From Solirubrobacter deserti (GTDB taxonomy: Bacteria > Actinomycetota > Thermoleophilia > Solirubrobacterales > Solirubrobacteraceae), in the NCBI RefSeq assembly GCF_003344625.1, contig NZ_QPKJ02000003.1:558001-622000 (forward strand): a stretch of 64,000 bases of DNA, read 5' to 3'. Positions 7,100-62,515 of the stretch are shown here, piece by piece. Under the pieces are notes generated by a model. That model saw nothing but the letters and a program-made list of their open reading frames with translations, did no database searches and was not told the DNA's origin. Numbering within the stretch: position 1 is the first letter of the stretch; each line of letters starts with the position of its first letter. The translations under genes and the position numbers were made by a program.

Positions 7100-10000
7100 T
7101 CAAGTCGTGAGCGTCAGCTTGCGCGGGCCGGCACGGAAGCCGAGCTCGAGCAGCGGCTCCTCCCACGGGGAGCCGACCACGGGCTCGCCGTCGACCTTCT
7201 CCAGCGCGAGCCGCTTGATGCGGCCGCGTTTGACCGCTTCGGCGAGCGCGGCCAGCGACGGCTCCACGCGCGGGTCGTCAGCGTCCACGAGGACCTGCAG
7301 GCCCTTGCCGCCGCGCTCGACGAACAGCACGGGCTCGGCGCCGGCCAGGATGACGTAGGCGCCGGCCTGGCGGGCGGGACGACGCGGCGAGTCCGGCCAC
7401 TTCAGGGCCGCGCCGTACGGCTGGGCCGGGTCGGTGGCGGCGAGCAGGATCGGCGGGGCGGCGTCGTCGTCCTTCTGCGCGCGCAGGCGCTCGACGGCGC
7501 CCGGAAGCGCGAACTGCGCGCCGCCCAGCCCTTCGACGAAGTACCCGCGGCGGGCGACGCCGATCGTCTCCAGCGCGGCGAGGGAGTCGTAGAGGCTGGA
7601 GAAGCCGCCCGGGATGCCCTCGGCCAGCACCTGCTCGCGGGTGACGATGCCGTAGCGCTCCAGCAGCAGCTCGGCCTGTGTCCGCCGGCGCGCGGACGGG
7701 TCCTCGTCGCCGGCCCGGAACAGCGGCGGCGTGAGCGACCAGCGGCCCTGGACGGCCGGCTGCGCGCCGCCCCGCCGCCGCGATCCGAACGTGCGCTTGC
7801 GCTCGGCCCGGGCGCGCTGCGACCACTGCGGGGTCGCCGCGGTGAGCTTCGGCGAGCGCAGGGGCGCGAACGCGTCGTTGGTCGCCTCGCCCGCCCACAC
7901 GAGGTCCCACAGCCCGTTCTGCAGCTCCTCCGTCGTGAAGCCGGCGACGTCGGTCAGCAGGTCGGTGAAGAAGCACGGGCCGGCGGCGAGGCGCTCACGG
8001 ATCGCGGTGTGGATCGGCTCGGTCGGCGCATCGGCGGCCTTCGGCGGCGGGCCGATCAGCGGCGCGTCGTCGCGGAAGTACAGCGCCACGCGGCCGGAGC
8101 GGCGGCCCAACGCGCCCGCGCCGACCCACACGACCTCACCGGACGCGCACAGCTGATCCAGCCAGTTCGGCGAGTAGGCGCCGGTGCGGCGCGGCAACAC
8201 GTCCCGTTCCCACACCTCGAGCGGCAGCGGCAAGCCCTGCAGCGGGACGAGCACCTCGCGCAGCCGGTCGATCCCGGCGCCGGCCGGCGGGTGGCGGTCC
8301 ACCCCCTGCCAGGAGGCCTGAAAGCGGGCGTAGGCGCGCTGGTCCGCGGGCTCGATCTCGGCGCGCAGCGCGGCCAGGGAGGCGCGACGCAGCCGCCGCA
8401 GCACCTCGGGATCGCACCACTCACGCGTGGTGCCGCCGGGCCGCAGCTCGCCGCGCACGAGGTCGCCCGCGGACTCCAGCCGCTCGAGCACGGGCGTGAA
8501 GTCCAGCCCGTAGCGCTCGCGCAGCGCGACAGTCTCGAACGGCCCGTGCGTGCGCGCGTAGCGGCGCACCAGCCGGTCCATCGCGTCCGGGACGTCGGCG
8601 ATGAAGGCCTCGGGCAGGCCGGAAGGCGGGACGGCGCCGAGCGCGTCCCGGTAGAGCCCGGCGTCCTCGGCCGCCACCCAGCGCTGTTCGCCGCCGACGC
8701 GCAGCTTTGCGACCCGCCGCTCGCCCTTGAGCTGCTCCAGCCACGCCTCCGTGCCGCCGCGCGCGATCGCCTCCTCGAGCGTGACGTCGCCGACGCGGCG
8801 CAGCACGTCGTGCAGCGCGTCCACGGAGTCGGCCCGGGTGCGCTCGGACAGCCGTTGCAGGTCGGCCTCGACCGTCTCCAGGGCGCCCGGGTCGATCAGC
8901 TCGCGCAGCTCCTCCTGGCCGAGCAGCTCGCGCAGCAGCTCGCGGTCCAGCGCCAGCGCGGCGGCGCGCCGCTCGGCGTTCGGCTGGTCGCCCTCGTACA
9001 TGTACGTGGCGACGTAGTCGAACAGCAGGCTGGAGGCGAACGGGGAGGCGGTCTCGGTCTCCACCGTCACCAGCGACAGCTCGCGCCGGTGCAGCTTGGT
9101 CAGCAGCTCCTGCAGGCCGGGCAGGTCGAGCACGTCGCGCAGGACCTCGCGGTAGGTCTCCAGCACGATCGGGAACTGCGCGTAACGGCGCGCGACCTCC
9201 AGCAGCGACTGGGACTTCAGGCGCTGCTGCCACAGCGGCGTGCGCCGGCCCGGGTAGGCGCGCGGGATCAGCAACGCGCGGCCGGCGTTCTCGCGGAACC
9301 GCGCGCCGAACAGGGCGCTCCCGCCCAGCTCGCCGACCACCAGGTCCTCGAGCTCGTCCGGGTCGATCAGCATCAGCTCCTCGTCCGGCGGCTCGTCGGC
9401 GTCGGGGAGGTGGACGATGATGCCGTCGTCGGACCAGATCGCGTCCGACTCGAGGCCGTAGACCTCGCGGATGCGGGCACTCAAGGCGAGGCCCCAGGCG
9501 GCGTGCACGCGGCCGCCGAACGGCGAGAGCACGCACACGCGCCAGTCGCCGATCTCGTCCCGGAAGCGCTCGACGACGATCGTGCGGTCGGACGGGATGA
9601 CCCGCGTCGCCTCCTGCTGCTCGCGCAGGAACTGCACGAGGTTGACGGCCGCCTTCTCGTCCAGGTGGTGGCTCTCGGCCAGCGTGGACGGGTCCTCGTC
9701 GACGGCCCAGCGCGCGAAGGCGCCGATCGCCTCGCCCAGCTCGCGCGGGCGGCCGAGCCCGTCGCCCTTCCAGAACGGCACCGCGCCCGGGACGCCCGGG
9801 GCGGGCGTGACGATCACGCGGTCGCGCGTGATCTCCTCGATCCGCCAGGACGAGGCGCCGAGCAGGAACGTCTGGCCCGGCCGCGCCTCGTAGACCATCT
9901 CCTCGTCGAGCTCGCCGACGCGGCGGCCGTCCGGGAGGTTGACCGAGTACAGGCCGCGGTCCGGAATGGTGCCCGCGTTCGTGATCGCCAGCGCCCGCGA

Positions 10001-13179: not shown

Positions 13180-13862
13180 CTGCCCCAGGCGAGGTCCTTC
13201 GCCTGCTGCAGGACCTCGTCGAGCATGGCGGGCGTGAGCTTGCCCGTGAACGTGTTCTGCTGGCTGGGGTGGAAGCAGCCGAGCAGCGGCCACGGCTCGC
13301 CGTCGGCGACCACGCCGTGGCCGAACTTCGGCTTGGGCCGCGGCGTCGGCGTGCGGCTCAGCGTGGCCCGCAGGCGCAGCGCGCTCTCCCACGCGAACCC
13401 GCCGAGGCAGAGCACGACGTGCACGTCCGGCAGCAGCACGACCTCGCGCTCCAGCCACTCGCTGCAGTTCGCGCGCTCCTCCGGCGTGGGGAGGTTGGCG
13501 GGCGGTGCGCAGCGCACCGCGGCGACCATGTACGCGCCGCGCAGCTCGAGGCCGTCGTCTTTGTGGATCGACTCGGCCTGGTTGGCGAGCCCGACCCGGT
13601 GCAGGCCGGCGAACAGGAAGTCGCCCGAGCGGTCGCCGGTGAAGATCCGGCCCGTGCGATTGCCGCCGTGCGCCGCGGGCGCGAGGCCGAGGATGAGGAT
13701 GCGGGCGGCGGGGTCGCCGAAGCCCGGCATCGGGCGGCCCCAGTAGGTCCAGTCCCGGTACGCGGCCCGTTTCTCGCGCGCCACCTGCTCGCGCCACTCG
13801 ACGAGCCGGTCACAGCGGCGGCAGTCGACGACCGCCTCGTTGAGCGCTTCCAAGGCGGCCAT
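13176..13862 (-). CDS. Family 5 uracil-DNA glycosylase (UDGb type)
   Basis: 228 residues; excises uracil (and in family 5 often hypoxanthine) from DNA. Motif A GLAPAAHGGNRTGRIFTGD lacks the polar catalytic residue of family 1, as is normal for family 5, and motif B is HPSQQNTFTG. Four cysteines for a 4Fe-4S cluster are visible: C14, C17 (DCRRCDRL), one in VRCAPP and one in ANCSEW. First gene of a three-gene operon with transporters to which it has no evident functional tie. Confidence 0.95.
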   Translation of the reverse strand: MAALEALNEAVVDCRRCDRLVEWREQVAREKRAAYRDWTYWGRPMPGFGDPAARILILGLAPAAHGGNRTGRIFTGDRSGDFLFAGLHRVGLANQAESIHKDDGLELRGAYMVAAVRCAPPANLPTPEERANCSEWLEREVVLLPDVHVVLCLGGFAWESALRLRATLSRTPTPRPKPKFGHGVVADGEPWPLLGCFHPSQQNTFTGKLTPAMLDEVLQQAKDLAWGR

Positions 13863-48981: not shown

Positions 48982-49203
48982 CTCCGAGGCGGCGAAGTCT
49001 CATCGCGGTCCGCCGGCCGGGCAAGCGCCGAGGCTGAAGCTCCACCCGAGGTCGCAGACCGACGGACCAGGCGTCGGGCCGGCCGGGCCGAGTGCGACCT
49101 TCGGTGGATGTGGCCGGGCAGCGCTTGTGCGCGCGAGCAGGCGAAGGGAGGGTTCCGGGACGTCGGCGCACTGCCGGCCGGATACGACCCCACAGGAGAC
49201 TCG

Positions 49204-49950
49204 ATGCACCCGCGCCGTATCACTGCCGCCGAGTTCGTCGGCACGTTCGTCCTCGTCTTTGGCGGCGTGGGCTCTGCTGTGATCGCCGGGGAGGTGATCG
49301 GCGCACTCGGCGTCGCCTTCGCCTTCGGTCTATCGCTGCTGGCTATGGCGTACGCGATCGGCCCGATCTCCGGCTGCCACATCAACCCGGCGGTGACGAT
49401 CGGCCTCGCCGTCTCTCGCCGCATCACCTGGCGCGAGACGGTCGGCTACTTCGTCGGGCAGGTGCTCGGAGCCGTCGCCGCGGCGCTGCTGCTGCTCATC
49501 ATCGTCAAGGCTCCTGACAGCGCCTACGACCTTTCCGAGCAAGGCTTCGGCGCGAACGGCTTCGGCGACCACTCACCGTCCAACTATCCGCTCCTTGCGG
49601 CGTTGCTCGCCGAGATCGTGCTCACCGGACTGCTGGTGTTCACGGTCCTCTCGGCGACCGATCGGATGGCCAACGTCGCGTTCGCCGGCATCCCGATCGG
49701 CCTCGTGCTCACGCTGATCCACCTCGTCGGCATCCCGATCGACAACACGTCGGTCAACCCTGCGCGCAGCCTCGGACCGGCCGTATTCGTCGGGGGGTGG
49801 GCGCTGGAGCAGCTGTGGCTGTTCATCGTCGCGCCGATCGTCGGCGCGGTCGGCGGCGCGCTGCTGCACGGGTACCTGTTCACCGGCGCGGCGCCGGTGG
49901 ACCCCGAGGCGTCCGCCGTCGCCGCCGAGCCGCCCTTGGCGACGACCTGA
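49204..49950 (+). CDS. aqpZ: Aquaporin Z-like water channel
   Basis: 248 residues, six membrane helices with two half-helices. First NPA in SGCHINPAVTIG (about residue 58-65), second in NTSVNPARSLGPA (about 182-188); the NTSVNPAR context with preceding His-poor IGIP and Arg after NPA marks water-selective AqpZ and not glycerol channels. AGGAG lies 6 nt before the ATG; the longer frame upstream is not conserved. About 220 bp of apparently non-coding DNA precede it. Confidence 0.93.
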   Translation: MHPRRITAAEFVGTFVLVFGGVGSAVIAGEVIGALGVAFAFGLSLLAMAYAIGPISGCHINPAVTIGLAVSRRITWRETVGYFVGQVLGAVAAALLLLIIVKAPDSAYDLSEQGFGANGFGDHSPSNYPLLAALLAEIVLTGLLVFTVLSATDRMANVAFAGIPIGLVLTLIHLVGIPIDNTSVNPARSLGPAVFVGGWALEQLWLFIVAPIVGAVGGALLHGYLFTGAAPVDPEASAVAAEPPLATT

Positions 49951-50149: not shown

Positions 50150-50935
50150 GTGATCGCGTCGCCTAAGAGCGCCGACCGCTACTGCAGTGGCTACTCGCGG
50201 CGGCTCGGCGGCGACGCCTGGGGCGACGACGAGCGGCTCGCGTGGTACGCACTGGACTGGATCACGACTGTGGTGCCGGCAGCAGCCGTCCTGTCGCCGG
50301 TGGACCGGCGTCTGGAGCTGTTCACCGCCGGGCCGGTGGTCGCAAAGGTCGACGGCCCGCAAGGACGACTCGACCTCACGCGGCTGCGTCCCGAGTACTT
50401 GAGCCGGGCCCGGACGTTCGACCCGTTCGCGCCCTCGCGCTGGAACCGCGGCGCGGCAACGGTCGTCGGCCCGGCGGACGTCGGCGGCCAGGACGCCCTC
50501 GCGCGGTCGTCATACGGCGCGTTCCTGGCCGCCCACGGCGTGGGCACCCAAGTGTCGGTGTTCTTCCGCGACGGCGGGAGGATCGCCGGTGCGATGCTGC
50601 TCTTTCGCCGCCGCGACGATCCGCCGTTGACGCAGGCGGAGAGCGTGCTGCTGCGTCGCGTGCAGCCGTTCCTCGAGCTTGCGCTGGCCTACGGCGGGCG
50701 CGCGGTCGAGCCGGCGGCGACGGAGCCGCTGCTCGCCTCCGGCCTGACGCCGCGCCAGATCGAGGTGGCCCGGCTCGCCGCGGCCGGCGCCACCAACGCC
50801 GAGATCGCGCGTGCGCTGTTCGTGAGCATTCCCACGGTCAAGACGCACATGAACCAGGTCTTGGCGAAGCTCGGCCTGCGCTCGCGCACCGAGCTCGTGA
50901 CCTTCTTGCGCGGTACGCGCGCAGGTGACGGGTGA
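50150..50935 (+). CDS. LuxR-type regulator, paralog 1 of the local family
   Basis: 261 residues. Residues about 20-175 form a GAF-like sensor domain also found in the LuxR genes at 54.1 and 57.2 kb (shared marks: FDPFAPSRW, SSYGAFLAAHG, LLLRRVQPFLE). C-terminal LuxR HTH at about 195-255 (LTPRQIEVARLAAAGATNAEIA, VSIPTVKTHMNQVLAKLGL). No receiver domain, so not an ordinary response regulator. The start is uncertain (ATC-rich region; an in-frame GTG at 50150). Convergent with the sigma-fusion operon. Confidence 0.88.
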   Translation: MIASPKSADRYCSGYSRRLGGDAWGDDERLAWYALDWITTVVPAAAVLSPVDRRLELFTAGPVVAKVDGPQGRLDLTRLRPEYLSRARTFDPFAPSRWNRGAATVVGPADVGGQDALARSSYGAFLAAHGVGTQVSVFFRDGGRIAGAMLLFRRRDDPPLTQAESVLLRRVQPFLELALAYGGRAVEPAATEPLLASGLTPRQIEVARLAAAGATNAEIARALFVSIPTVKTHMNQVLAKLGLRSRTELVTFLRGTRAGDG

Positions 50936-50941: not shown

Positions 50942-52297
50942 TCAGCGCAACTCGAACTCGCCCGCGCCGTCGCGGTCCCGCGGCGCCCGGCTCGGCGGCG
51001 CCGCGGGTGAAGCGACGCCGGGCCGGGGCGTGGCCGACGGCGCGACAGCGGGCGGGGCGGTAGGCGACGGCACGACGGCGGGCGGGGCCGTCGCCGTCGG
51101 CGCCGCGGCCCGCTGCCGCGCGGCGCGCGAGCGCGCCGCGTTGCGGCGTTGACGCTTGGCCCGGCGCGCCTCCGAGGCCGCGCGTGATGCGGTCCGCGCG
51201 CGGGCTGCCCGACCGGGCCGCGCCCTGTCGTGTTCGGCCGCTTCGCCGGATCGCGTCGCCCGCTTCTCGCCGGTGGAGGGCGCACCCGCTGGCGGGGAGA
51301 TCGCGGGCCGCGTCAGTCCGCGGCGGTCCGCGGCGGCCTGGCCGGCACCGGCACCCGGCGTGCCGCTGGTCACGGCCGCGCCCGGAGGCTCCGGCGCGCT
51401 GTGGCCGGGCGGCCGATCGAAGAGCCGGACGCCGGCGAACGCCGTCACGGCCACCGCGCCGGCGGTCGCCGCCGCCAGCCCGGCCTGGCGAGCGCGCCGC
51501 GCGAGACGCGTGCGGTCTCGCGGCCCGGTCGACGCCCCGCTCCCTCCGGCGGACAGCGCGGCAACCACCGCCGCGGCGGGCGGGGTCACGGCGGCGAGCC
51601 CGCGCATGCGCAGCACGCGGTACCGGCAGGCCGAGCAGTCCTCGAGGTGCTGCGCCGCGAGGCGGCGTCGCTCCCCGCCGGTGTCGAGCAGGCCAAGCGC
51701 ATAGGCCCTGATGAGCGACTCCCTTCGATCGCACCACTCGCCGCGCTCGATCTCGCCGAGCAGATCGCCGAGCTTCTTCGACACGCCGTCCATCAGCTTC
51801 TCCATCCGCCGCGGGCTCACACCGAGCACCCGGGCGGCGTCCCGGCGCGTGTAGGCGTGCACGTAGCAGAGCGCCGCGGCCTGCTGCTCGCGCACCGTCA
51901 GCCGCTCACGCAGCCCTTCGACGAACTGGCCGAGCCGGACATGGTCGTCAAGCCGCTCGGCGAGGTCGGGCTCCACCATCGGCAGCTCGACGTCGTCGAC
52001 GGCCGCACGACGGTCCGGGTGCAACGCGCGCACCTCGTCGAGGGCACGCCGCTCGGCGATCGTGATCACCAGCCCGGCGCGGTTCGCGATCGGCTCGCCG
52101 GCCGCAAGCCGCGTGTACACGCCATGCCAGGCCTGGTTGTAGGACGCTTCAAGGTCCGCGTCGTCGAGGCGAAGGCCGCGCGCGGCGAGCTTGCCCCGCA
52201 GCGTGCTGAGGACCTCGGGCTTGAGCCGCTCGTAGTCCTGCGCGACGATCGCGTCGGCGCGCTGGCGCCGATACCGCGACTCGGCAAGCGCGGTCAT
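50942..52297 (-). CDS. Sigma-70-like factor fused to ZAS motif, membrane helix and low-complexity tail
   Basis: 451 residues. Divergent region 2 (about 15-90, LKPEVLSTLRGKLAARGLRL, NQAWHGVYTRL) and region 4 (about 130-185, LTVREQQAAALCYVHAYTRRDAARVLGVSPRR). Then HLEDCSAC (His-x3-Cys-x2-Cys), a membrane helix near 262-290 (AGLAAATAGAVAVTAFAGV) and 160 residues rich in Arg, Ala, Pro. Same plan as the gene at 36.8 kb. ATG 52295-52297 overlaps the stop of the secreted gene upstream (ATGA). Confidence 0.8.
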   Translation of the reverse strand: MTALAESRYRRQRADAIVAQDYERLKPEVLSTLRGKLAARGLRLDDADLEASYNQAWHGVYTRLAAGEPIANRAGLVITIAERRALDEVRALHPDRRAAVDDVELPMVEPDLAERLDDHVRLGQFVEGLRERLTVREQQAAALCYVHAYTRRDAARVLGVSPRRMEKLMDGVSKKLGDLLGEIERGEWCDRRESLIRAYALGLLDTGGERRRLAAQHLEDCSACRYRVLRMRGLAAVTPPAAAVVAALSAGGSGASTGPRDRTRLARRARQAGLAAATAGAVAVTAFAGVRLFDRPPGHSAPEPPGAAVTSGTPGAGAGQAAADRRGLTRPAISPPAGAPSTGEKRATRSGEAAEHDRARPGRAARARTASRAASEARRAKRQRRNAARSRAARQRAAAPTATAPPAVVPSPTAPPAVAPSATPRPGVASPAAPPSRAPRDRDGAGEFELR

Positions 52298-53931
52298 CGG
52301 ATGTCGACGTCGACGAGCTGGCGCTCGCTGCGCACGACCGGCCACGGCCACCCGGGCGTGGACTCGACCACCGTCCGGAACGAGAACGTCGTGTCGCGCG
52401 TCAGGTGGACGAACCGGTAGCGCCAGCGGTACCGGCCGTCTGCGCGGGCGCGGGCGACGCCGACCGGCGCCCAGCGTCCGTTGACGATCGACTCGACGCG
52501 TACGATCGCGCCGCGGGCCGACGGCCCCGCGCCGCGCAGCCGTCCTTGCAACGTGAGCGTGCGCCCCTTCACCAGCGAGCCGGGGTGCGGCTCGGCGCTG
52601 AGCCGCAGACGCGTCCGGACCGTCACGGACGCGCTTGCGGCCGGCGCGCTCCCGGCGGCGGGGACGAACGCAACGGTGATGCGCCGCGCGCCGTCACCAC
52701 GGGCGGGCACGGTGAAGCGTCCGCGCTGGTCGGTCGTGACCCGCGCGAGCGGGCGCGGCTCGGGGTCGTCGACGCCGAGGTCGAGCGAGGTCACCTCGAG
52801 CCGGGCGCCGGCGAGCGGTGCGCCCCGCGGCGTCCGCAACGTCCCGGTCACGTGCGCTGTGGCCCCGGCGCCGTGGACGATCGATCGCCGCGCCAGCCGC
52901 AGCTCGGCCGCTCGGAGCGCCTGCGCCGGCCCGGGCGCAGGTGCCGCCAGCACGGCGGGCGGCGTCACGGGCACGGGGCGCGGATCGGCCACGGTCGGGG
53001 CCCGCACCTCGAACTCGACGGGTCCCCAGCCGGTGACGTTGCCCGCCGCGTCGGCGACGGTCCCGGACGCGGTGTGGTGCCCGGCGGTGAGCGCGCCGGC
53101 ATCGACGCGGAAGTGCTCGGCCACGGAGGTCGGACACGGAACGGCGGTCACGTACGGCTCGCGGCACCCCGTGGACGCGGTCTGCGCCGGCCTGCCGTCA
53201 ATCGAGAGAGACACCGACTCCACGCCGCCGCCCCGGTCCCACGCGGAGACCGTCAAGACCGCCGCGCCAGGCGCCACCGGCCCGTCCACGAGCTGGCCCG
53301 ACACCGTCGGAGCCGCCGGCGGCTCCAGGTCTTCGAGGGTCACCTGCGCGCGGTACAGCGCGGCCTGCGCCGGCGTGCGGTCCGGTCGCTGGCACCACGA
53401 CCGCTCGCACGAGACCTGCAACCGCACCGCGTCGAGCGGCGCCCGACGCTGCGTGACTTCGTTGGCCGGCGCGAGCGGGTCACCCGGATCCCCGGCGGCC
53501 GTGCATGTCCACGTGCTGCAGCCGTACGGCACCGCCGCACCGCCGGCGCTCTCCGCCACCGCGGCGCCGTAGTCGAAGCTGCGCAGGAACTGCGGCGGCG
53601 CGACCGCCAGCGAGCGCCACAGCCGGTAGCCGGCGATCCGCGTCCCGGGCGGAGCGGACAACGCCGCCATCCCGACGACGGCGCTGCTGAACTCCCGGCC
53701 TGGCGCCAGCGAGACGCTCAGCGCGCCGCCCTGGGCGCAGGTGTCGGCGAAGGTCACGTCGCCCGCCGCCGCGTTCACCGTCGTCGACGTCCACGCCGCG
53801 GCGCTCAGCGGCTCGCCCGCCGGCCCGCGACACGACCACACCGAGTACGTCTTGGCGTGGACGACCGCCGGCAGGGTCAGGCACACTCCCACCGCGGCGG
53901 CCGACGCGTAGCTCAACCAGCCCTTGCCCAT
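52294..53931 (-). CDS. Secreted protein with Ig-like/CarboxypepD-type domains
   Basis: 545 residues. Signal peptide (ASAAAVGVCLTLPAVVHA), an N-terminal domain with paired Cys (SCRGPAGE, DTCAQGG, PYGCSTWTCTAAG, SCERSWCQRP), an Ig-like domain with bacterial-adhesin features (VSAWDRGGGVESVSLSIDG, GTVADAAGNVTGWGP), and a carboxypeptidase-regulatory-like part (TGTLRTPRGAPLAGARLEV). Function unknown; likely cell-surface or exported. First gene of the operon with the sigma fusion; one arm of the large inverted repeat lies 52 bp upstream. Confidence 0.8.
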   Translation of the reverse strand: MGKGWLSYASAAAVGVCLTLPAVVHAKTYSVWSCRGPAGEPLSAAAWTSTTVNAAAGDVTFADTCAQGGALSVSLAPGREFSSAVVGMAALSAPPGTRIAGYRLWRSLAVAPPQFLRSFDYGAAVAESAGGAAVPYGCSTWTCTAAGDPGDPLAPANEVTQRRAPLDAVRLQVSCERSWCQRPDRTPAQAALYRAQVTLEDLEPPAAPTVSGQLVDGPVAPGAAVLTVSAWDRGGGVESVSLSIDGRPAQTASTGCREPYVTAVPCPTSVAEHFRVDAGALTAGHHTASGTVADAAGNVTGWGPVEFEVRAPTVADPRPVPVTPPAVLAAPAPGPAQALRAAELRLARRSIVHGAGATAHVTGTLRTPRGAPLAGARLEVTSLDLGVDDPEPRPLARVTTDQRGRFTVPARGDGARRITVAFVPAAGSAPAASASVTVRTRLRLSAEPHPGSLVKGRTLTLQGRLRGAGPSARGAIVRVESIVNGRWAPVGVARARADGRYRWRYRFVHLTRDTTFSFRTVVESTPGWPWPVVRSERQLVDVDIR

Positions 53932-53982
53932 GTCAGCCCGGCGAGCGTACACCTTCGGGGACGCCATCTCCGGCCTTACGGC

Positions 53983-54070
53983 TACGACCTTGGGATGATC
54001 TTCGGCGCCGGACCTGGTCCGGCAGCGCACGCCCGGTGGCTCAGGGCGGGAAGATCATCCCAACGTCGTA
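53983..54070. promoter_or_regulatory. Large inverted repeat with two copies of a recurring motif
   Basis: Arms 53983-54003 and 54050-54070 match over 20 of 21 positions, with a 46-bp spacer. Each arm carries the motif TCATCCCAA(G/C)GTCGTA (minus strand in the left arm, plus in the right). It sits between the divergent starts of a secreted-protein/sigma operon and a LuxR gene, 52 and 36 bp from the respective start codons. Best read as a double operator for a dimeric regulator. Confidence 0.7.
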
Positions 54071-54106
54071 GGCCACGTCGACGGCGCACGGCTCATACTC
54101 GGCGCG

Positions 54107-54877
54107 ATGCGGAGGCGGCCGAGCGAGGCAGCGCGTGGATCTGCGCCGGTGCTCACACCGGTCGACCTCACGCCCCCAGGCGACGGACTGCTGCAGCTGA
54201 TGGCCTCGGCCCTGCGGGTCGTCGTCACGGTGGTCCCCGCCGCGGTCGCCATCTTCTACGTCGTCACGCGGCGGCTACGCGTCGGCGATGGGGTGTTCAC
54301 GCCGCCGCCGCCCGCGCTGGCCCAGCTGCCGGACGAGTGGGCCGAGCGCCACCGCAGCCCGGACTTCGTCGATCCGTTCGCCGCCAGCCGCGTCGCCGAC
54401 GTCAGCGCCCCCGTGCTGCACCTCGACGACGTGCTCCCCCGGGAAGCGCTCGCCGACTCGTCGTACGGACGCTTCCTGGCGCGGTACGGCGTCGACGACC
54501 AGCTCGCGCTCTACGTCCGCGCGTCCGGCGCGATCGTCGGCGCCATCACGCTGATGCGCACGGCCGAGGCACCGGCGTTCGATCCCCGCGAGCGGCTGCT
54601 GCTGCGACGGCTCCAGCCCCTGGTCGAGCACGTCTACGTCGAGGCGCGCGAGCCGGCGGTGGCGTCGGACCGCCACGAGGCGCTGCTCCTGGCGAGCCTC
54701 ACGCCGCGCGAAGCGGAGGTCGCCCAGCTCGTGGCCGGGGGCTCGACCAACGCGGAGATCTCGCGGGCGCTGTACATGAGTCTTCCGACCGTGAAGACCC
54801 ACGTGACGCAGATCTACGCCAAGCTCGGGGTGCGCAACCGGACCCAGCTCGCGATTCTGCTCGGCCCGCGGGCGTGA
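54107..54877 (+). CDS. LuxR-type regulator, paralog 2
   Basis: 256 residues. Sensor-like domain at about 20-180 (DFVDPFAASRV, DSSYGRFLARYG, LLLRRLQPLVEH) as in the other two local LuxR proteins, then LuxR HTH (LTPREAEVAQLVAGGSTNAEIS, SLPTVKTHVTQIYAKLGV). No receiver domain. Preceded by the inverted repeat at 53.98-54.07 kb, which likely mediates autoregulation or cross-regulation. Start could be a later GTG at about 54147. Confidence 0.9.
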   Translation: MRRRPSEAARGSAPVLTPVDLTPPGDGLLQLMASALRVVVTVVPAAVAIFYVVTRRLRVGDGVFTPPPPALAQLPDEWAERHRSPDFVDPFAASRVADVSAPVLHLDDVLPREALADSSYGRFLARYGVDDQLALYVRASGAIVGAITLMRTAEAPAFDPRERLLLRRLQPLVEHVYVEAREPAVASDRHEALLLASLTPREAEVAQLVAGGSTNAEISRALYMSLPTVKTHVTQIYAKLGVRNRTQLAILLGPRA

Positions 54878-54883
54878 CCGTCG

Positions 54884-56587
54884 TCAGGCGTACGGGCCGC
54901 GGAACGCGGCGAGCCGGCCCTCCCCGGCGGCGCGCGCTTGACGGCAGGCGGCCTCGGCGCCGGCGATCAGCGCTTCCGGCGTCGTGAGCCTGCGGGAGGC
55001 GTCGGCGACGCCGACGCTCGCGCTCAGCCCGCGCTGCAGGAGCGCGGCCTGAACCTCGCGTCCGGCCGCGGCGCAGGCGTCGAGGTCGGCGCCGGTGAGC
55101 ACCGCGGCGAGCGTCCCGGCTCCGATCCGCGCGGCGTCCGCGCCCGTGTGCGCGCGCATCACCGCGGCCGCGACGAGCAGCGCCTCGTCGCCGGCCGCGA
55201 AGCCGTGCTCGGCGTTGAGCCGGCGAAGGTCATCCAGCTCGACCACGAGCACGCTGAGCGGCCGCCCGGAGGCGCACGCCCGCTGGACGTCCGCATGCAG
55301 CAGGTCGCGGAAGCGCCGGTGGTTGGCCAGCCCGGTCAGCTCGTCCTGCAGATCGGGGTTCCGGAGCCGCTCGTGCAGGTCGATGGCTTCGATCGACGCG
55401 GCGGTCTGCGCCGCGAGATACGCGAGCAGCTCGCTCTGCTCGCGCGAGAACGGCCCGCTCGTCCGGCAGACCGCGAGCGCGCCGAGGATCACGGGATCTC
55501 GCGACGCCAGCAGCGGACGCCCGATCGCCCACAACCCGTGGTCGTCGCTCGACGCGGTCGCGTCCCCGGCGAGCGCCGCCCGCTCGACCGAGAGCAGCGC
55601 CTCCGAGTCGGCGTCGCCCGAGCGCGCGGGCACCGCCTCGAAGACGGACGACTCCAGCGCGCCGGCAAGTCGCGCCCGGCCGGCCGTGCCGGCGACGGCG
55701 TCGACGGCGGTCCCGAGCGCGACCTCGAGCATCGCGTCGCGGTCGAGGCTGTAGCCGAGCGATCGTGCCGTGCGGTGGATGGCCACCCGTACGCGCTCGC
55801 GCTCGCGCTCGACCTCGTCGAGCCGGTCGAGCGCGGCGTTCACCCGCTGGGTCCGGTCGCGTGCGAGCGCCGCCAGCAGCAGGGCCAGGGGCAGGGTCGC
55901 GAGCACGCCGAGCGGCTCGTGGGCGGCGGCCGTCGCGGTCACGAGTCCGGCGGGCACGAGCGTCGCGTCGACCGCGTAGACGGTGAGCATGACCCGCAGC
56001 TGGAGCGAAGGGCGGATGCCGCGACCGAGCCACTCGCGTCCGACGGACAGGACGCAGTCGAGCGCGATCTGCGCCGCGAACGCCGCGGCGAGCACCGCCC
56101 ACTGGCCGGTGGCCGCGTCCGGCTCGCCCGCGGCGCTGAGCACCACCACCGGCGCGAACGCGTACCCCGCGTCGCCGACCGCGGTGAGCAGCCGGCTGGG
56201 GGACTGCCGCCCCGCTAGCACCTCCGGGAGCGCGCCGCATACCAGCGCCACGACGACGACCAGTGGCACCAGCCCGAGCGGCAGCAGGAACAGCAGCGGG
56301 ACGAAGACGAGCTGCGTGGCGAGCGCGGACCCGCCACCGACATACAGCCGCACGTGCGTGCAGACCGCGAACGCGAACACGCCCGCGACGAGCGAGCCGA
56401 CGTCCAGCGAGCGCGCCGACGGCAGGGCGACCGCGGCGGCCAGCGCTCCGCCCGCGACGAGCGCCGCGAGCGCGAGCTCGACCCGCAGCTCGCGTTCGCT
56501 CAGCCCACGCGGGCGGTCGGGGCGCGACCGCGCAAGCAGCTCCTCGACACCGCCCTCAGCCCTTGCTGTAGGGGTCGACGTAGACAT
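54884..56587 (-). CDS. Membrane protein with GAF and degenerate GGDEF domain
   Basis: 567 residues. Multiple N-terminal membrane helices (about 35-235), a coiled region (LDRLDEVERERERVRVAI), a GAF domain (about 270-400) and a GGDEF-like domain (about 405-565). The latter starts normally (DELTGLANHRRFRDLL, VVELDDLRRLNAEHGFAAGDEAL), but the active loop is RIGAGTLAAVL in place of the GGDEF sequence, so cyclase activity is not expected. It may sense or scaffold. Convergent with the LuxR gene at 54.1 kb. Confidence 0.88.
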   Translation of the reverse strand: MSTSTPTARAEGGVEELLARSRPDRPRGLSERELRVELALAALVAGGALAAAVALPSARSLDVGSLVAGVFAFAVCTHVRLYVGGGSALATQLVFVPLLFLLPLGLVPLVVVVALVCGALPEVLAGRQSPSRLLTAVGDAGYAFAPVVVLSAAGEPDAATGQWAVLAAAFAAQIALDCVLSVGREWLGRGIRPSLQLRVMLTVYAVDATLVPAGLVTATAAAHEPLGVLATLPLALLLAALARDRTQRVNAALDRLDEVERERERVRVAIHRTARSLGYSLDRDAMLEVALGTAVDAVAGTAGRARLAGALESSVFEAVPARSGDADSEALLSVERAALAGDATASSDDHGLWAIGRPLLASRDPVILGALAVCRTSGPFSREQSELLAYLAAQTAASIEAIDLHERLRNPDLQDELTGLANHRRFRDLLHADVQRACASGRPLSVLVVELDDLRRLNAEHGFAAGDEALLVAAAVMRAHTGADAARIGAGTLAAVLTGADLDACAAAGREVQAALLQRGLSASVGVADASRRLTTPEALIAGAEAACRQARAAGEGRLAAFRGPYA

Positions 56588-57167
56588 CGTCAATCTCCCA
56601 TGTGCTCAAGCCCAGCGACGTGAAGCGCAGCGCGACCCGCGTACGTCCGCCGAGCGCCAGCAGGTTCGCCAGCACCGGCATGGGCGGTGATGGAGCCCAG
56701 CCGCCCCCGGAGCTCACCAGCAGGCCCACGGGCAGACCGATTCGCAGGCCGAGGACCGTCGTCACCACGACCTCGACCGCGAGCGAGCCCAACGGCGATC
56801 CCGTCTTGCGGACGAAGAAGCGCAGCGACGGGTGGTGGAGTCCCACGCAGATCTCCGGCGACTTCGCGGTCCCTCCCGGCGCCAGCTCCAGGGCGTGCGC
56901 GTCCGTCGCCGCGCGCTTGTTGAGGGGCTGGTTGCCCTCGACCACGATGGCGCGCGACCGCTGCCAGCCGCTGGCTCCGCCCTCGAAGCCACCGTCGCCG
57001 ACGAGCACGTAGTTCGCGTCGTCCGCCCACGGCGCGAACGGGCGCTCGAGCGTCTCCGGCGGGCAGTTGTAGGCCGGGCGCACGAGGATCTGCGCGTGCG
57101 CTGGGGCGGCGGAGAACGCGAAAACGGCGACGACGGCGAACACCAGTGCGAGCGGCATGCGGCGCAT
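56556..57167 (-). CDS. Secreted protein of unknown function
   Basis: 203 residues. Signal peptide (LALVFAVVAVFAFSAAPAHAQ), then a jelly-roll/carbohydrate-binding-like fold: GGFEGGASGWQRSRAIVVEGN, HALELAPGGTAKSPEICVG, TRVALRFTSLGLSTWEIDDVYVDPY. The DGGFEGG...W...IDDVYVDPY frame resembles CBM-type lectin domains. Two Cys (YNCPP, EICVG). Overlaps the GGDEF-like gene by about 30 bp, so they form an operon. A motif copy lies 44-59 bp upstream of its start. Confidence 0.78.
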   Translation of the reverse strand: MRRMPLALVFAVVAVFAFSAAPAHAQILVRPAYNCPPETLERPFAPWADDANYVLVGDGGFEGGASGWQRSRAIVVEGNQPLNKRAATDAHALELAPGGTAKSPEICVGLHHPSLRFFVRKTGSPLGSLAVEVVVTTVLGLRIGLPVGLLVSSGGGWAPSPPMPVLANLLALGGRTRVALRFTSLGLSTWEIDDVYVDPYSKG

Positions 57168-57210
57168 CGTCGCCGCCGGCGACGCGCCCGTGTGCCGTCG
57201 GCCGCGAGGA

Positions 57211-57226
57211 TCAACCCTAAGTCGCA
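57211..57226. promoter_or_regulatory. Motif copy upstream of the CBM-like secreted gene
   Basis: TCAACCCTAAGTCGCA matches TCATCCCAAGGTCGTA at 12 of 16 positions. It lies in the 65-bp gap between a LuxR stop codon and the secreted-protein start, the expected promoter position for the latter. Confidence 0.45.
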
Positions 57227-57232
57227 GGCCGC

Positions 57233-57949
57233 TCATGCGCTCGCCACCGTCGGCGCGGCGCCCAGGACCACGGCCAGCTGCGTTCTCGTCCGCACGCCGA
57301 CCTTGGCGTAGATCTTCGTCAGGTGAGTCTTGACGGTCGCCTGGCTCATCGCCAGCGCCTGCGCAATGTCCGCGTTGCTGGACCCGCTCGCGACCAGCGC
57401 GGCGACCTGGCGTTCCCGGCGGGTCAGGGCGTCGACCGGCTCGCGCGCGGCCAGCGGGTCGGCCGCCACCGCCTCTGCGGCGCCGACGAGCAACGACTGC
57501 TCGAGCAGCAGCGACAGACGCCTGAGCAGCAGCAAGTTCGCGGGCTCGAACGGCGGCATGCCCGCCTCGCGGAACAGCCCGATGGCCGCGACGATCCGCC
57601 GGTCGCGCCGCAGGTAGAGGAACGCCGGGTATCCGTACCCGTTGTCGAGCAGGCGCCGTCCGTAGATCGAGTTGAAGAAGCGCGTGGTCCCGCCGATCTC
57701 GGCCACCGACAGCACGACGTCGCGACGGTCCTGAGCGCGGCGCGGGCTGAACGGGTCGACCGGCTCCAGCCGCCGCAGCAGTTCCGCGAGGCGCTCGGCC
57801 GGGGCGGCGTGCTCCGAACGGCCACGGCTTGCGACCTCGCGATCAAGGGTCCCGGACTCGTCGACCGCGAGGGCAACGACCAGCGAGGCCGGAATGAGCG
57901 CATGCAGCGCGTCGACGGCCAAGCCCAGCAAGACGTCCTCCCTGCTCAC
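57233..57949 (-). CDS. LuxR-type regulator, paralog 3
   Basis: 238 residues. Shares the sensor-like domain of the other two (EPVDPFSPRR, SIYGRRLLDNG, LLLLRRLSLLLEQ), then LuxR HTH (LTRRERQVAALVASGSSNADIAQAL, SQATVKTHLTKIYAKVGVR). No receiver domain. GTG 57947-57949 follows a GGGGGTAGGG ribosome-binding stretch. A motif copy lies 88-103 bp upstream. Leads an operon with the secreted CBM-like and degenerate GGDEF genes. Confidence 0.88.
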   Translation of the reverse strand: MSREDVLLGLAVDALHALIPASLVVALAVDESGTLDREVASRGRSEHAAPAERLAELLRRLEPVDPFSPRRAQDRRDVVLSVAEIGGTTRFFNSIYGRRLLDNGYGYPAFLYLRRDRRIVAAIGLFREAGMPPFEPANLLLLRRLSLLLEQSLLVGAAEAVAADPLAAREPVDALTRRERQVAALVASGSSNADIAQALAMSQATVKTHLTKIYAKVGVRTRTQLAVVLGAAPTVASA

Positions 57950-58036
57950 CCCTACCCCCGAAAGGTTCGTGCCCCGAGATTCTGGACGCGAGCGTCTCCT
58001 ACGCCGGCCCGTCCACGCAAGCATGGCAGGGCGAAC

Positions 58037-58052
58037 TCATCCGAAAGTCGGA
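58037..58052. promoter_or_regulatory. Motif copy upstream of LuxR paralog 3
   Basis: TCATCCGAAAGTCGGA, 13 of 16 matches to the motif; this copy contains a true dyad, TCCGA-AAG-TCGGA, as expected for a dimeric HTH protein. It lies in the 140-bp gap between two LuxR genes. Confidence 0.5.
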
Positions 58053-58090
58053 GACGGCGGGTAGGAGACCCGCCGCCCTCGACCGTGTCC

Positions 58091-58483
58091 TCACGATTCG
58101 ATGCCGCGCAGCGCCTTCAGCGCGTGTTGCAGGCGCTCGGCTTCGGCCGTCGCCGGAGCGAGCTCGTCGAGGCGCGCCTCGAGCTCGCGGATCTGCCGTT
58201 CGATCAGCGGCGACGTCTCGTCGGCGTGCCGCGCGGGCGGCGGCCGCAGCGGGTGGCTCGTGCAGTGCTCGAGGTAGTAGCGGGTGGCCTGGATGCGGTT
58301 CCGGACCCCGATCTTCCTGTACATGTTCGTCAGGTGCGTCTTGATCGTGCCCGGCGTGACCCCCAGCTGGCGCGCGATGTCGGGGGTGGTGTTGCCGGCC
58401 GCCAACAGCGCGAGGGTCTCGAGCTCGCGCGGGGTGAGCGGTTCGTTCCCTCGCACCCGAGCGGGTTCGTTGCGTTGGCCCAT
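58091..58483 (-). CDS. Short LuxR-HTH protein
   Basis: About 130 residues, essentially only the DNA-binding domain (PLTPRELETLALLAAGNTTPDIARQL, TPGTIKTHLTNMYRKIGVRNRIQ at about 15-75) plus a helical tail (LIERQIRELEARLDEL), a likely dimerisation coiled coil. No sensor domain. The longer frame to 58540 begins in the convergent-facing spacer. Lies between LuxR paralog 3 and the DUF11 gene in the same direction. Confidence 0.85.
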   Translation of the reverse strand: MGQRNEPARVRGNEPLTPRELETLALLAAGNTTPDIARQLGVTPGTIKTHLTNMYRKIGVRNRIQATRYYLEHCTSHPLRPPPARHADETSPLIERQIRELEARLDELAPATAEAERLQHALKALRGIES

Positions 58484-58559
58484 GGCGTTCAGTCGGTCGA
58501 CTGCTCCCGCTGGGTGCGGCGCCGCCCGGCGGCGCCGCACCCTGGTGGTGGGGAGGGAG

Positions 58560-61295
58560 CTACCCGGTCACCCCCGGGGAGGGGTTGACCACCCGCACCG
58601 ACCGCCTGGCCGTGGCGGGCTTGACGTCGGACGAGCTGACCGTCGCGCGGTTGACCTTGCGGCCGCTGGCGCCCTTGGCCGCGCGCACCGTCACCCGGAA
58701 CGTGCGGCTCTTGCCGGCGGCGAGCGAGGTGACCGTCCAGCACCGCTGGCTCCCGCTGCGCCGCGCGCGCGGCGACGAGCTGACGAAGGTCAGGCCCGAC
58801 GGCAGGCGGTCGCAGACCTCCACGTTGCGGGCCACGCCCTTGGACGGGTTGCTGACGCGGATGCGGTAGCTCAACGTCGATCCCGCCTGGACGGAGGCCC
58901 GGCTGGCCACCTTGGTCAGCCGCAGCGGCACCTTCTGGACGTCGACGTCTGCCGTGTCCATGTTGTTGCCCGGCGTCGAGTCGGTCCCGCAGCAGCTCGT
59001 CGCGCTGGCAGCGTTGCGCACCCGGCCGCTCTTGAGCGGCGCGATGATCATCGTCACCGTGACGCTCTTGCCCGGCTCGATCCGGCCCAGCTGACAGCTC
59101 ACGGGCAGTTGTTGCGTGCAGGTGCCCTGGGTCGTGCGCGCGGACACCAGGGTCGCCGGGGAGTTGAGCGTGTCGGTGACCTCGGCCGCCGGGGCCGCGC
59201 CCGGGCCGTTGTTGCGGACCACGACCCGGTACGTGAGCCGCTGGCCGACGAGCGGCCGCGCGAGGCCGGCACGCTTGTCGACCGCCAGGTCGAAGGCCTC
59301 GGGCGCCGGCGCGGCTGGCACCGCTGGCACGCAGACCACGGCCGACGCGCGGTTGTCGTCTGCCGCCGGATCGCTGCGCGAGCCCTGCGCCTGTGCCGTG
59401 TTGGTGATGCACCCGGGCGCCGCCGTGGTGTTGGTGGTCACCAGCACCTGCGCCGAGCCGCCGTTGCGGAGCGCGCCGAGATCGCACGCGACGCGGTTGT
59501 TGGCCGTGGTGCACGACCCCTGGCTGGCCTCCGCCGCGACGAGCGTCAGCCCGGCCGGGAGCGGGTCGGTCACCTTCACGTCGGGATCGTCGCTCGGCCC
59601 GTTGTTGCGAACCACGAGCGTGTACATGACCTGTCCACCGCCGGCGGGCACGGTCTGCGTCGAAGCGGTCTTGGTCATCGACACCGCCGACCGGGCCACG
59701 ATCGGGACGCAGATCGTCGAGCTGTTGTTGCTCGTGTTCGGGTCCAGGGTCGCCCCGGCCGTCGTCGCGGTGTTGCGCAGGCAGCTGGTGAGCGAGCTCG
59801 CGACCTGGCCGGTGATCGTGAAGGTCTTCGACGCGCCGACCGCGAGATCGCCGACCGCACACGTCACCGTACCGCTCGCCTCGTTGCAGCCCGGGCTCGC
59901 CGAGGTGAACGTGACCTCGGCCGGCAGCTTGTCGGTGATCGTCTCGTTGACCGCCGTGCTGGGGCCGTTGTTGGTCACCCTCAGGGAGAACGTCACGTCC
60001 TCGCCCGGGACGATCGGCGACGACGTCGCGCGCTTCTCGAGCACCACGTCCGCCATGGCCGAGTTCATGACGTTGCACGTGTAGTAGGTCGCGCTCGCGA
60101 CTGTCAGCGTCCACGTTGGCCCGGTGCCGCCCGTGGCCACCGGGTTGCCGTTGGAGTCCTTGCACGCGAGCGAGCTCTGGTACTCGCCCAGCGGCGTCGG
60201 CGAGCCGGGAGCCATCGCGTCGGTGATCGTGTACGTCCTGCCCTGGCTCACCGGCCAGTTGGTCGTCGACGCCGTCGTCGCGGTGCCGGACGTCGTCGCC
60301 GAGTCCAGCGCCCGCCCCGTGTCCTCGACCAGCCCGACGACGAACTGGTCGGCCGGCCGCACCCGGCCGTTGACCGTCTTGGTCACCGTGATGGTCGGCA
60401 CCGGCGCGCTCGCGCACCGCCCGCCGTCGTTGCCTCCCGACGGCTGTCCCGTGGAGGCGAGGATCGTGGCACGCGTGGTCGTGTCGACGCGGTAGACGTT
60501 GCCGTTCGCGTTCTGGCTTCCGTAGAGGTACCCGGAGGCGTCGACGAAGACGGCGCCGATGCCGCCGCCCGAGAACCCGACGGGCCCCAGGTCGATCACG
60601 CGGCCGGTGGCCGGATCGAAGCGCGCGAGATGCGTGGGCCCGGTCGGCACCGTCGCGCTGACGAGCGCGTGCAACGAGCCATTGACGAACGCCCAGTCGG
60701 CCATGCCGCCCGGCTGCAAGCCCGGGTCCCACGTGAACGTGCCCGACCGCAACACGCTCGGGGTCGGGGTCGTCAGGTCGACTTCGTACCAGTTGACGGT
60801 GTTGGCCACCCAATAGTGGCCATCGGGGCCCACGTCGCCGACGTGGTGACCCTCGGTGGCGGGGATGGTGCCGCCCGGCCCGGTGGGCGATCCGAGGTCG
60901 TCGACGCTGCCGTCGCTGTGGACGCGCACGATCGACAACGTCGGGGTGGCCGGGTCGTCCTCGTTGTTCTGCCGGCCGTAGTAGAAGCCGTCGAGCTGGT
61001 TGAACCCGACGGCGTTGACCGGATGTGCAAGATCGACCAGCTTGGTCTGCTGACCGCTGGCGAGGTCGACCCGATAGATCTCGTTCGTCCCGGCGGTGGG
61101 CGTCTGGAACAGGTAGCCGAACGCGTCGCACGACCACGCGCTCGCCTGGGCCGACGCCGACGGGGCGGCCACCGCCATCGTCGCCAGCGCCAAGGCCGTC
61201 ACCACAGCAGCACGTACCCGGCCCCTGGAGCGCCGGAAGCGCGCACCCGGCCCGCGGGCGTCCGGGTCGTCACTGGATGAGCGTGCTTCGAACAT
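58560..61295 (-). CDS. Large secreted DUF11-repeat surface protein
   Basis: 911 residues. Twin-arginine-like basic stretch (RFRRSRGRVRAAVV) before a signal peptide (ALALATMAVAAPSASAQ), an N-terminal DUF6923-type propeller-like domain (about 55-310: NEIYRVDLASG, LSIVRVHSDGS), a linker domain with VTKTVNGRVRPADQFVV, then at least four DUF11/isopeptide-type repeats, each with V-x-NNGPS (DVTFSLRVTNNGPS, MYTLVVRNNGPS, TYRVVVRNNGPG) and TDPLPAG. A basic C-terminus lacks a sortase motif. GGGAGGG precedes ATG 61293-61295. Likely a cell-surface fibre or adhesin. Confidence 0.9.
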   Translation of the reverse strand: MFEARSSSDDPDARGPGARFRRSRGRVRAAVVTALALATMAVAAPSASAQASAWSCDAFGYLFQTPTAGTNEIYRVDLASGQQTKLVDLAHPVNAVGFNQLDGFYYGRQNNEDDPATPTLSIVRVHSDGSVDDLGSPTGPGGTIPATEGHHVGDVGPDGHYWVANTVNWYEVDLTTPTPSVLRSGTFTWDPGLQPGGMADWAFVNGSLHALVSATVPTGPTHLARFDPATGRVIDLGPVGFSGGGIGAVFVDASGYLYGSQNANGNVYRVDTTTRATILASTGQPSGGNDGGRCASAPVPTITVTKTVNGRVRPADQFVVGLVEDTGRALDSATTSGTATTASTTNWPVSQGRTYTITDAMAPGSPTPLGEYQSSLACKDSNGNPVATGGTGPTWTLTVASATYYTCNVMNSAMADVVLEKRATSSPIVPGEDVTFSLRVTNNGPSTAVNETITDKLPAEVTFTSASPGCNEASGTVTCAVGDLAVGASKTFTITGQVASSLTSCLRNTATTAGATLDPNTSNNSSTICVPIVARSAVSMTKTASTQTVPAGGGQVMYTLVVRNNGPSDDPDVKVTDPLPAGLTLVAAEASQGSCTTANNRVACDLGALRNGGSAQVLVTTNTTAAPGCITNTAQAQGSRSDPAADDNRASAVVCVPAVPAAPAPEAFDLAVDKRAGLARPLVGQRLTYRVVVRNNGPGAAPAAEVTDTLNSPATLVSARTTQGTCTQQLPVSCQLGRIEPGKSVTVTMIIAPLKSGRVRNAASATSCCGTDSTPGNNMDTADVDVQKVPLRLTKVASRASVQAGSTLSYRIRVSNPSKGVARNVEVCDRLPSGLTFVSSSPRARRSGSQRCWTVTSLAAGKSRTFRVTVRAAKGASGRKVNRATVSSSDVKPATARRSVRVVNPSPGVTG

Positions 61296-61705
61296 GCGTG
61301 TCCCTCCCGTATGGGCACTGGCATCCTCCACGCGTGAAGTGACACGCGCGGATCAGCGGGCGTCTCAGCCCGGCTGGTGTTGACTTACTGTGAGTGGAGG
61401 TTGCGGAATGACCTCACGACAGCTCGGTCACTGACAGCTGATGACCTGGTCGTGCCGGCCGAAGCGGCGCGCCAGCGCGCCGGAGGACTCTTCCGACGGG
61501 CCGTCGTGCCGATCGCAGACCATATGCGGTGTGAGTCTCTGCCGCATGGCAGAGCCCGTCTTTCATCCCAAGGTCGTATCCGACCACCGGGGGTCGCTGT
61601 GCGTTCACATACGCGTGACTACGACCAAAGAGTGATTCCGGCGGTGACGCTTACCAGCGACGGCCTCGTGCTGACTAGGCTGGCCACCCCGGGGGCGCGT
61701 CCCGG
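61296..61705. promoter_or_regulatory. 410-bp divergent regulatory region with one exact motif copy
   Basis: No convincing gene. TCATCCCAAGGTCGTA at 61563-61578 is identical, base for base, to the motif in the left arm at 53983-53998. A perfect 7-bp hairpin, CTCTGCC-GCAT-GGCAGAG (61537-61554), lies 9 bp before it. The region separates the DUF11 gene (61295, minus) from the L,D-transpeptidase gene (61706, plus). Confidence 0.6.
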
Positions 61706-62515
61706 ATGCAGACAGCCATGCGACGTCCACGACTCACAGGCGAGGGACCCGGGCGACTGACGCTTCGGCGCCACGCGCGCGCGCTCGTAGCGGTGGGCGC
61801 GATCGCCGTGACAGGCCCCACGCCCGCCCATGCGCAAGCGCCGACGCCGACGCCGACGCCGACGCCGTTCACGGTCGCCGCGCCGTCCCGCGCGAACGGC
61901 TCGACCGTCGCGCGACTCGTCGCGCCCGCGTTCGCTCGCCATGACCTGCGCGCCGCGAAGTCCGGCCGCCGGCTGGGGACGACGACCTCGTGGTCGGCGC
62001 AGCCGCAGGCGCTGCTGGTGCTCGAGGGGGCGACGTTCGAGGGGCAGGACTGGGTGAAGGTGCTGCTGCCGACCCGCCCGAACGGCTCCACCGGGTGGGT
62101 CCCGCGCGACCGCGTCGCGCTCGGCCGCAGCCGCTACTGGATCACGGTCCGCCTGCGCACGCGGCGCGTCACCGTCTACCGCGACGGCAAGCGCGTACGC
62201 TCGTTCCGCGCGGTCATCGGCGCCCGGGCGACGCCGACCCCGCTCGGGCTCGCCGCCATCTACGAGCGCAACCGCCAGCCGAACCCCCGGGTATTCGTCG
62301 GTCCATGGGTGCTGTCCCTGACCAGCCTCTCGAACGTCCTCGAGAGCTACGGCGGCGGCCCGGGACGGGTCGCGATCCACGGCCGGTCCGGCGCCAGCCT
62401 GCGCGACCCGCTCGGCAGTGCCCGCTCGCACGGCTGCATGCGCGTCAATAACCGCGATGTCCGCTGGCTCGCCACGCGGGTGCCGGCCGGCACGCCGGTG
62501 CACGTCAGGCGCTGA
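61706..62515 (+). CDS. L,D-transpeptidase with SH3-like domain
   Basis: 269 residues. N-terminal export signal (ALVAVGAIAVTGPTPAHAQ), a Thr-Pro repeat from (CCGACG)n DNA, an SH3-like segment (about 65-135, LLVLEGATFEGQDWVKVLLP, NGSTGWVPRDRVAL) and a YkuD domain (about 143-268) with AIHGRSGASL and SHGCMRVNN, Cys at about 244 as nucleophile. Exported peptidoglycan 3-3 crosslinker. Probably controlled through the motif 128 bp upstream. Confidence 0.9.
   Translation: MQTAMRRPRLTGEGPGRLTLRRHARALVAVGAIAVTGPTPAHAQAPTPTPTPTPFTVAAPSRANGSTVARLVAPAFARHDLRAAKSGRRLGTTTSWSAQPQALLVLEGATFEGQDWVKVLLPTRPNGSTGWVPRDRVALGRSRYWITVRLRTRRVTVYRDGKRVRSFRAVIGARATPTPLGLAAIYERNRQPNPRVFVGPWVLSLTSLSNVLESYGGGPGRVAIHGRSGASLRDPLGSARSHGCMRVNNRDVRWLATRVPAGTPVHVRR

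Follow-up and report, generated by a model that had tools for sequence, protein, structure and literature searches.

A 16-bp sequence element confined to a cluster of LuxR-type regulator and secreted-protein genes in Solirubrobacter deserti

The gene cluster and the copies of the element

We analysed a stretch of 64,000 nucleotides (nt) from the soil bacterium Solirubrobacter deserti (hereafter the window), in which a 16-bp sequence element recurs within a cluster of genes for LuxR-type regulators and predicted secreted proteins. The cluster begins on the plus strand with an aquaporin-like (MIP) gene (49204–49950), named by reading its protein with no family search behind the name, and luxR0 (50150–50935). 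Two minus-strand genes follow. The first encodes a sigma-like protein (50942–52351), which is extended by a long segment at its C-terminus and whose match of the extracytoplasmic function (ECF) type stays under the curated cut-off; by eye, this protein also shows a hydrophobic stretch, two cysteines paired as is typical of anti-sigma domains of the zinc type, and a long tail rich in Pro and Ala. The second is secP2 (52294–53967), a predicted secreted protein whose N-terminus was judged signal-like by eye. Next comes luxR1 (54107–54877, plus strand), which encodes a GAF-like domain and a LuxR helix-turn-helix. The minus strand then carries genes for a GGDEF-domain protein (54884–56593), the predicted secreted protein Sec4 (sec4, 56556–57236), which is without a Pfam family, the LuxR-type regulator LuxR3 (luxR3, 57233–58024), a small LuxR-type protein made up of a helix-turn-helix and a C-terminal tail (luxR5, 58091–58540), and a DUF11-repeat surface protein (58560–61331). 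An L,D-transpeptidase (YkuD) gene (61706–62515, plus strand) completes the set. The first-pass annotation of this DNA had described the latter as an SH3-L,D-transpeptidase, of which the SH3 part has to be dropped: Pfam gives a YkuD domain and no SH3 domain at E 0.001. Rfam gave no matches over the window at gathering cut-offs.

The long LuxR genes luxR0, luxR1 and luxR3 are paralogues of 39–40% identity; we refer to them below as the LuxR subfamily, to which luxR5 does not belong. GerE matches of the cluster's LuxR proteins range from 61 to 63 bits.

Two copies of the element are exact 16-mers (TCATCCCAAGGTCGTA). Site A (53983–53998, minus strand) lies upstream of secP2, 51 nt from ATG 53931 and 15 nt from ATG 53967, while site C (61563–61578, plus strand) lies between the divergent DUF11 and L,D-transpeptidase genes, 127 nt from the ATG of the latter. 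Site B (54055–54070, plus strand; TCATCCCAACGTCGTA) has one mismatch, with the luxR1 ATG 36 nt downstream. Site D (58037–58052, plus strand; TCATCCGAAAGTCGGA) has three mismatches and lies upstream of luxR3, 12 nt from ATG 58024 and 87 nt from GTG 57949. Site E (57211–57226, plus strand; TCAACCCTAAGTCGCA), between luxR3 and sec4, has four. The first-pass annotation had listed these five copies, with every coordinate and mismatch count correct. It had also placed all of them in intergenic DNA, which for two copies holds or fails with the start codon chosen. Site A is inside the longest frame of secP2 (GTG start, open reading frame 52294–54030) and outside the gene if it starts at 53967 or 53931; site E is coding if sec4 starts at ATG 57236, but not if it starts at 57167.

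Together, sites A and B make up the two arms of an inverted repeat of 24 bp (53980–54073), alike in 22 of the 24 bases and separated by 46 nt, and a further palindrome, CCGGACCTGGTCCGG, lies within these 46 nt at 54008–54022. The centre of site B is 44.5 nt upstream of the luxR1 ATG, and a CATACT sequence is found 7 nt upstream of the same ATG. Going by general promoter rules, we presume that this spacing would fit activation near −43 of a luxR1 transcript that has no leader; this is a reading of the sequence and not a result.

Restriction to the cluster and recurrence in a second species

The S. deserti assembly comprises 7.55 Mb in 428 contigs and is 96.7% complete. Searched over its whole length with up to two mismatches, the 16-mer occurs at three places, all of them within the cluster, and the backwards pattern occurs at none. 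With up to three mismatches the window holds four matches where 0.13 are expected, a number reached by none of 100 dinucleotide shuffles. We also built a weight matrix from sites A to E and scored it against a background of 296 kb of the same genome (15 stretches, 591,550 words). In leave-one-out scoring, site B reached 24.0, sites A and C 22.1 each (with the identical other copy removed as well) and site D 20.4, all of them more than any background word. Site E scored 15.3, which two background words equalled or exceeded. It is the weakest copy and not significant by itself. The earlier claim that the exact repeat is far beyond chance is borne out, and the genome-wide search revealed a local motif, not a random scatter.

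The matrix also picked up two related sites that had been overlooked, both upstream of the aquaporin-luxR0 pair: site G (49093–49108, minus strand; TCCACCGAAGGTCGCA) with a score of 16.9 and site H (49041–49056, plus strand; TCCACCCGAGGTCGCA) with 14.2. The background contains no word of at least 16 and two of at least 14. With these two, a site precedes each of the three long LuxR genes of the cluster or its upstream neighbour. The L,D-transpeptidase gene might have a weak second site (61620–61635, minus strand; TCACTCTTTGGTCGTA; score 10.2), but the background holds 0.08 such words per kb and this one may be a chance match.

Two broader roles were considered and rejected. A housekeeping promoter element of the genome is not indicated, as 360 kb contain the core CCNAANGTCG 18 times, the cluster's own sites included, and the reversed pattern 10 times, which is no clear general excess. 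A motif common to the whole order seemed conceivable at first sight: across 201 genomes of the order, TCATCCCAANGTCGTA with at most one mismatch gave 21 matches in 21 genomes besides its own, versus three for the reversed sequence, which speaks against a fully local motif. However, all but one of the 21 fall within open frames of at least 286 codons, four reading HPNVV and three YDVGM. We therefore take this excess to be coding sequence, open frames in GC-rich DNA being no proof of it, and set a motif common to the order aside.

The element recurs in another Solirubrobacter species, G003. Here, two luxR genes of the subfamily are followed by homologues of sec4 and the GGDEF gene, in the same order as in S. 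deserti. The S. deserti matrix scores 21.5, 17.4, 16.5 and 15.4 in this cluster and at most 12.2 in 37.6 kb of flanking DNA; a G003 word scoring 15.1 was discarded because it is inside a tRNA-Lys gene. Strong sites include one at the position equivalent to site E. A degenerate pattern drawn from the five S. deserti sites (one mismatch allowed) has 13 matches in G003, three of them inside the 6.4 kb of the luxR-sec4-GGDEF cluster. By a hand estimate that assumes an even spread, at least three of 13 would fall there by chance with a probability of about 2e-7. One of these matches overlaps a GGDEF gene at its stop codon. A zero-mismatch match, on contig 22, was rejected, since it falls within a 730-codon frame.

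The same element was found in G003 de novo. Expectation-maximisation at width 16 was run on six segments of intergenic DNA from the cluster, all given the same 20-nt margins and without information from S. deserti, and its best motif was the element, scoring 19.1–21.3 in five segments and 12.8 in the sixth. The five sites precede luxR2', sec4', a CAP-domain protein gene, GGDEF2' and an RTX-repeat protein gene. The total score of 113.8 was attained by none of 40 control sets of real intergenic sequence (mean 97.3, standard deviation 5.3, maximum 113.2). The test was not wholly blind, as the G003 cluster had been picked after the earlier matrix hits. In an earlier run, in which segment ends were set after the sites were known, the best of 10 shuffles reached 104.4 compared with 113.8.

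Joint occurrence with the LuxR subfamily

Relatives of the three LuxR proteins were sought in 232 genomes of the order, with 11 candidates scored per genome. Full-length close relatives (E <1e-105) turned up in G000, G231 and G003, and distant ones (1e-30 to 1e-48) in five further genomes. In a contig scan with luxR1, the only full-length match among those listed (at least 80 loci) was from S. deserti, of which strain CPCC 204708 encodes a 100% identical luxR1. Within Solirubrobacter, where the best candidates, up to 150 per genome, were scored, the subfamily and the motif cluster are both present in three of seven genomes (again G000, G231 and G003), and both were not found in the other four. 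G231 belongs to the same species as the window and is 99.83% and 99.94% identical to it over 13.0 and 5.2 kb.

The degenerate pattern has 10 (G001), 13 (G002), 13 (G005) and 15 (G004) matches in the four species where the subfamily is missing, with no three of them within about 6.4 kb. The reversed pattern matched 7, 6, 11 and 6 times in these genomes, respectively, 6 times each in G000 and G231 and 5 times in G003. The pattern thus exceeds its control in these four species (51 versus 30 in total), but is unclustered. G002 has orthologues of secP2 (48% identity) and of the sigma-like gene (65%) and no site, the best word in 14 kb scoring 10.7; this suggests that the element goes with the LuxR regulators and not with secP2 or the sigma-like gene. 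Relatives of the latter were found in G000, G231 and G002 (E 4.7e-95 in G002), and none in G003 at E 1e-8.

Upstream regions of target homologues were scanned with regard to strand at 42 of 60 loci, namely all 30 sec4 loci (two with less than 200 nt of upstream DNA) and, for the L,D-transpeptidase, 12 of 30 loci (one being the own gene and one having 14 nt upstream). Before sec4, the motif was detected only at the own locus (22.5, the site that is weak by leave-one-out) and at the locus beside the G003 luxR genes (21.5), followed at a distance by a word of 12.5. None of the ten testable L,D-transpeptidase homologues, the own gene excluded, has the motif (best score 7.2). Conservation upstream of orthologous genes, as expected of a regulon, is hence partial: it is seen before the sec4 homologue beside the G003 luxR genes, but neither before secP2 of G002, where there is no subfamily, nor before the ten L,D-transpeptidase homologues. 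Where the regulator is present, a site precedes an orthologous target for one target (sec4) and in two species only.

Another word, GCCGACTTTAGG, was seen once each in G002, G003 and G005 directly upstream of the sec4 homologue (L121, L122 and L123:1501–1512; three of seven places, 6 of 61 genomes). It has a core in common with sites D and E on the other strand. G002 and G005, however, are without the LuxR subfamily; the word is perhaps a sec4 promoter element, and it gives reason to doubt site E.

A candidate operator of the GAF-like LuxR regulators

The element probably is the operator of the cluster's own GAF-like LuxR regulators. It exists beyond chance, is restricted to this locus, recurs in G003 and occurs jointly with the subfamily, and we infer that these LuxR proteins bind it as dimers and regulate by it. 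That one or more local LuxR proteins are the binders had already been proposed in the first-pass annotation, and the joint occurrence across seven genomes, a comparison of sequences, points the same way. A regulator dimer would occupy the 16-bp site as two unequal heptamers (most commonly TCANNCC and GGTCGNA) around a central dinucleotide, mostly AA. From the sites before luxR1, luxR3 and the aquaporin-luxR0 pair, the regulators would control their own genes; genes for secreted proteins would be under the control of the same operator and, in G003, so would a GGDEF gene. The sites vary in orientation relative to the gene and in distance to the start, as expected of an operator. Site C, before the L,D-transpeptidase gene, is as strong as any in S. 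deserti. It is the one basis for the coordination of cell-wall crosslinking that had been suggested earlier, and this idea found no support outside S. deserti.

Across ten sites (the seven of S. deserti and three of G003), the outer T and A are present in all and the central AA in seven. About the centre at 8.5, positions 1/16 and 6/11 are complementary in 10 of 10 sites, the other six pairs in 1 to 3 of 10. The clearest palindrome is TCCGACCAAGGTCTGA from G003. The dyad TCCGA-AAG-TCGGA (5-3-5), which had been taken as typical of LuxR-type dimers, is complete in site D and in no other copy.

The layout resembles the 7-2-7 site bound by NarL dimers, as far as can be judged from the Escherichia coli example TACCCCTAAAGGGGTA, in which 16 bp are arranged as two heptamers around a central AA (PMC4549865). 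Length, outer T and A and, in seven of the ten sites, central AA agree with this example, and the cluster proteins have a helix-turn-helix of the same family. The heptamers here, however, are unequal and of other sequence, and the regulators have a GAF-like part instead of a phosphorylated receiver domain. A second comparison is with autoinducer receptors. QscR, SdiA, RhlR and CviR were the nearest solved full-length folds of the luxR1 model in Foldseek, and here too the regulator genes adjoin the sites. However, whole-chain TM-scores were low (0.42 at first rank), and the autoinducer-binding domain PF03472 stayed below its curated cut-off of 23 bits in luxR1 (20 bits) and was not reported for luxR0 or luxR3. 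The VIA-align comparison of the luxR1 model covered the 1000 chains ranked highest by Foldseek and excludes no fold. Among Actinobacteria, the DosR/DevR box of mycobacteria, GGGACTTTNGTCCC, is the operator of a LuxR-type helix-turn-helix protein; our sites are without its GGAC and GTCC ends. TCATCCC reads GGGATGA on the opposite strand, which is like the MalT core and may serve as a lead.

Several observations weigh against an operator of these regulators. The sites have poor symmetry, only two of the eight pairs being constant. Counting G231 together with the window, to which it is nearly identical, the motif is carried by only two independent species, and the absence of the subfamily elsewhere in the genus is only as good as the search of the best candidates. 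There was no convincing copy near the distant LuxR relatives in five genomes: the best word, in G026, scored 14.4, and no word above 14.1 was found in G173, G161, G195, G187 or at a second G026 locus. In G003, the segment between the two luxR genes has no clear copy (one of six segments), two sites are weak by the S. deserti matrix (10.2 at 7496), and three (L055:5206, L055:7496 and L055:9836) overlap the stop codon of the preceding gene. Finally, one of the 40 control sets came close to the de novo total (113.2 versus 113.8).

At the three G003 sites just mentioned, the initial TCA of the site is itself the stop codon of the preceding gene, read on the other strand. The best G026 word, TCACCCGAAGGTCGCC at 13271 (minus strand), precedes two divergent frames; taken by itself, it is not significant. 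At this locus (L056), which belongs to another genus, LuxR relatives stand together with an L,D-transpeptidase (67% identity) and a DUF11 protein.

The foremost alternative, which we consider unlikely but worth weighing, is that another regulator binds the element, for example the small LuxR protein (58091–58540) or one encoded elsewhere, and that the LuxR subfamily is only one of its targets. The role could fall to any regulator that G000, G231 and G003 share, and the small protein has a LuxR helix-turn-helix too. However, it has no counterpart in the G003 region, where its similarity to the two long LuxR proteins is limited to their helix-turn-helix parts, and an unlinked regulator leaves unexplained why the sites stay inside the cluster.

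A role as promoter motif for the sigma-like protein (50942–52351) is very unlikely. In its favour, this protein is encoded behind site A in the secP2 operon and has its ECF-type match, though under the curated cut-off. But the G003 motif cluster lacks the sigma-like gene, G002 has this gene and secP2 without a site, and the sites have no fixed orientation or distance, the nearest plausible start being some 12 to 127 nt away (with uncertainty about the starts). Hardly more credible, if not slightly less, are leftovers of duplicated upstream DNA or of a small repeat with no regulatory function. The likeness of A and B, head to head, and the paralogy of luxR0, luxR1 and luxR3 could be understood in this way. 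Yet at the identity of these paralogues, unselected upstream likeness should be lost; moreover, the longer A/B repeat is missing from C and D, the genome has no further copies, and in G003 the element precedes unrelated genes. Chance repetition selected post hoc is the least likely of all: the motif was chosen by eye and site E alone is not significant, but for sites A to D chance is refuted by the genome-wide count and the leave-one-out scores, no shuffle matched the window, all three genome places fall in one cluster, and the element was recovered in a second species without motif input.

If the element is indeed the operator of the GAF-like LuxR regulators, a bolder and rather doubtful scheme can be drawn. 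Three paralogous regulators that share one operator, each before its own transcription unit, might constitute a cross-wired switch coupling GGDEF signalling to a changing set of secreted surface proteins, with regulator and operator kept and secreted targets swapped between species. The candidate secreted targets in S. deserti are sec4, secP2 and the pair formed by the DUF11 protein and the L,D-transpeptidase, whereas those in G003 are sec4, the CAP-domain and the RTX-repeat protein.

In the open-licence literature, we found no regulator binding site or operator of this sort for Solirubrobacter or Thermoleophilia, nor the exact 16-mer or its complement. The find is real, but of an ordinary kind. 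A true operator would make the cluster a compact test bed, offering three regulators related to one another, a 16-bp site of defined sequence, and an L,D-transpeptidase, a GGDEF protein and secreted proteins among the targets. It would also illustrate how a regulon restricted to one cluster can keep its regulator and site while its secreted targets differ by species.

The sec4 homologues of other genera (L060, L062, L063, L067 and L068) are preceded by words of a different kind. These are GGACGGATGTTC, GGACAGATGTTC or CGACGGATGTCC-like and, by eye, close to the palindrome GGAC-N4-GTCC; perhaps they represent another operator.

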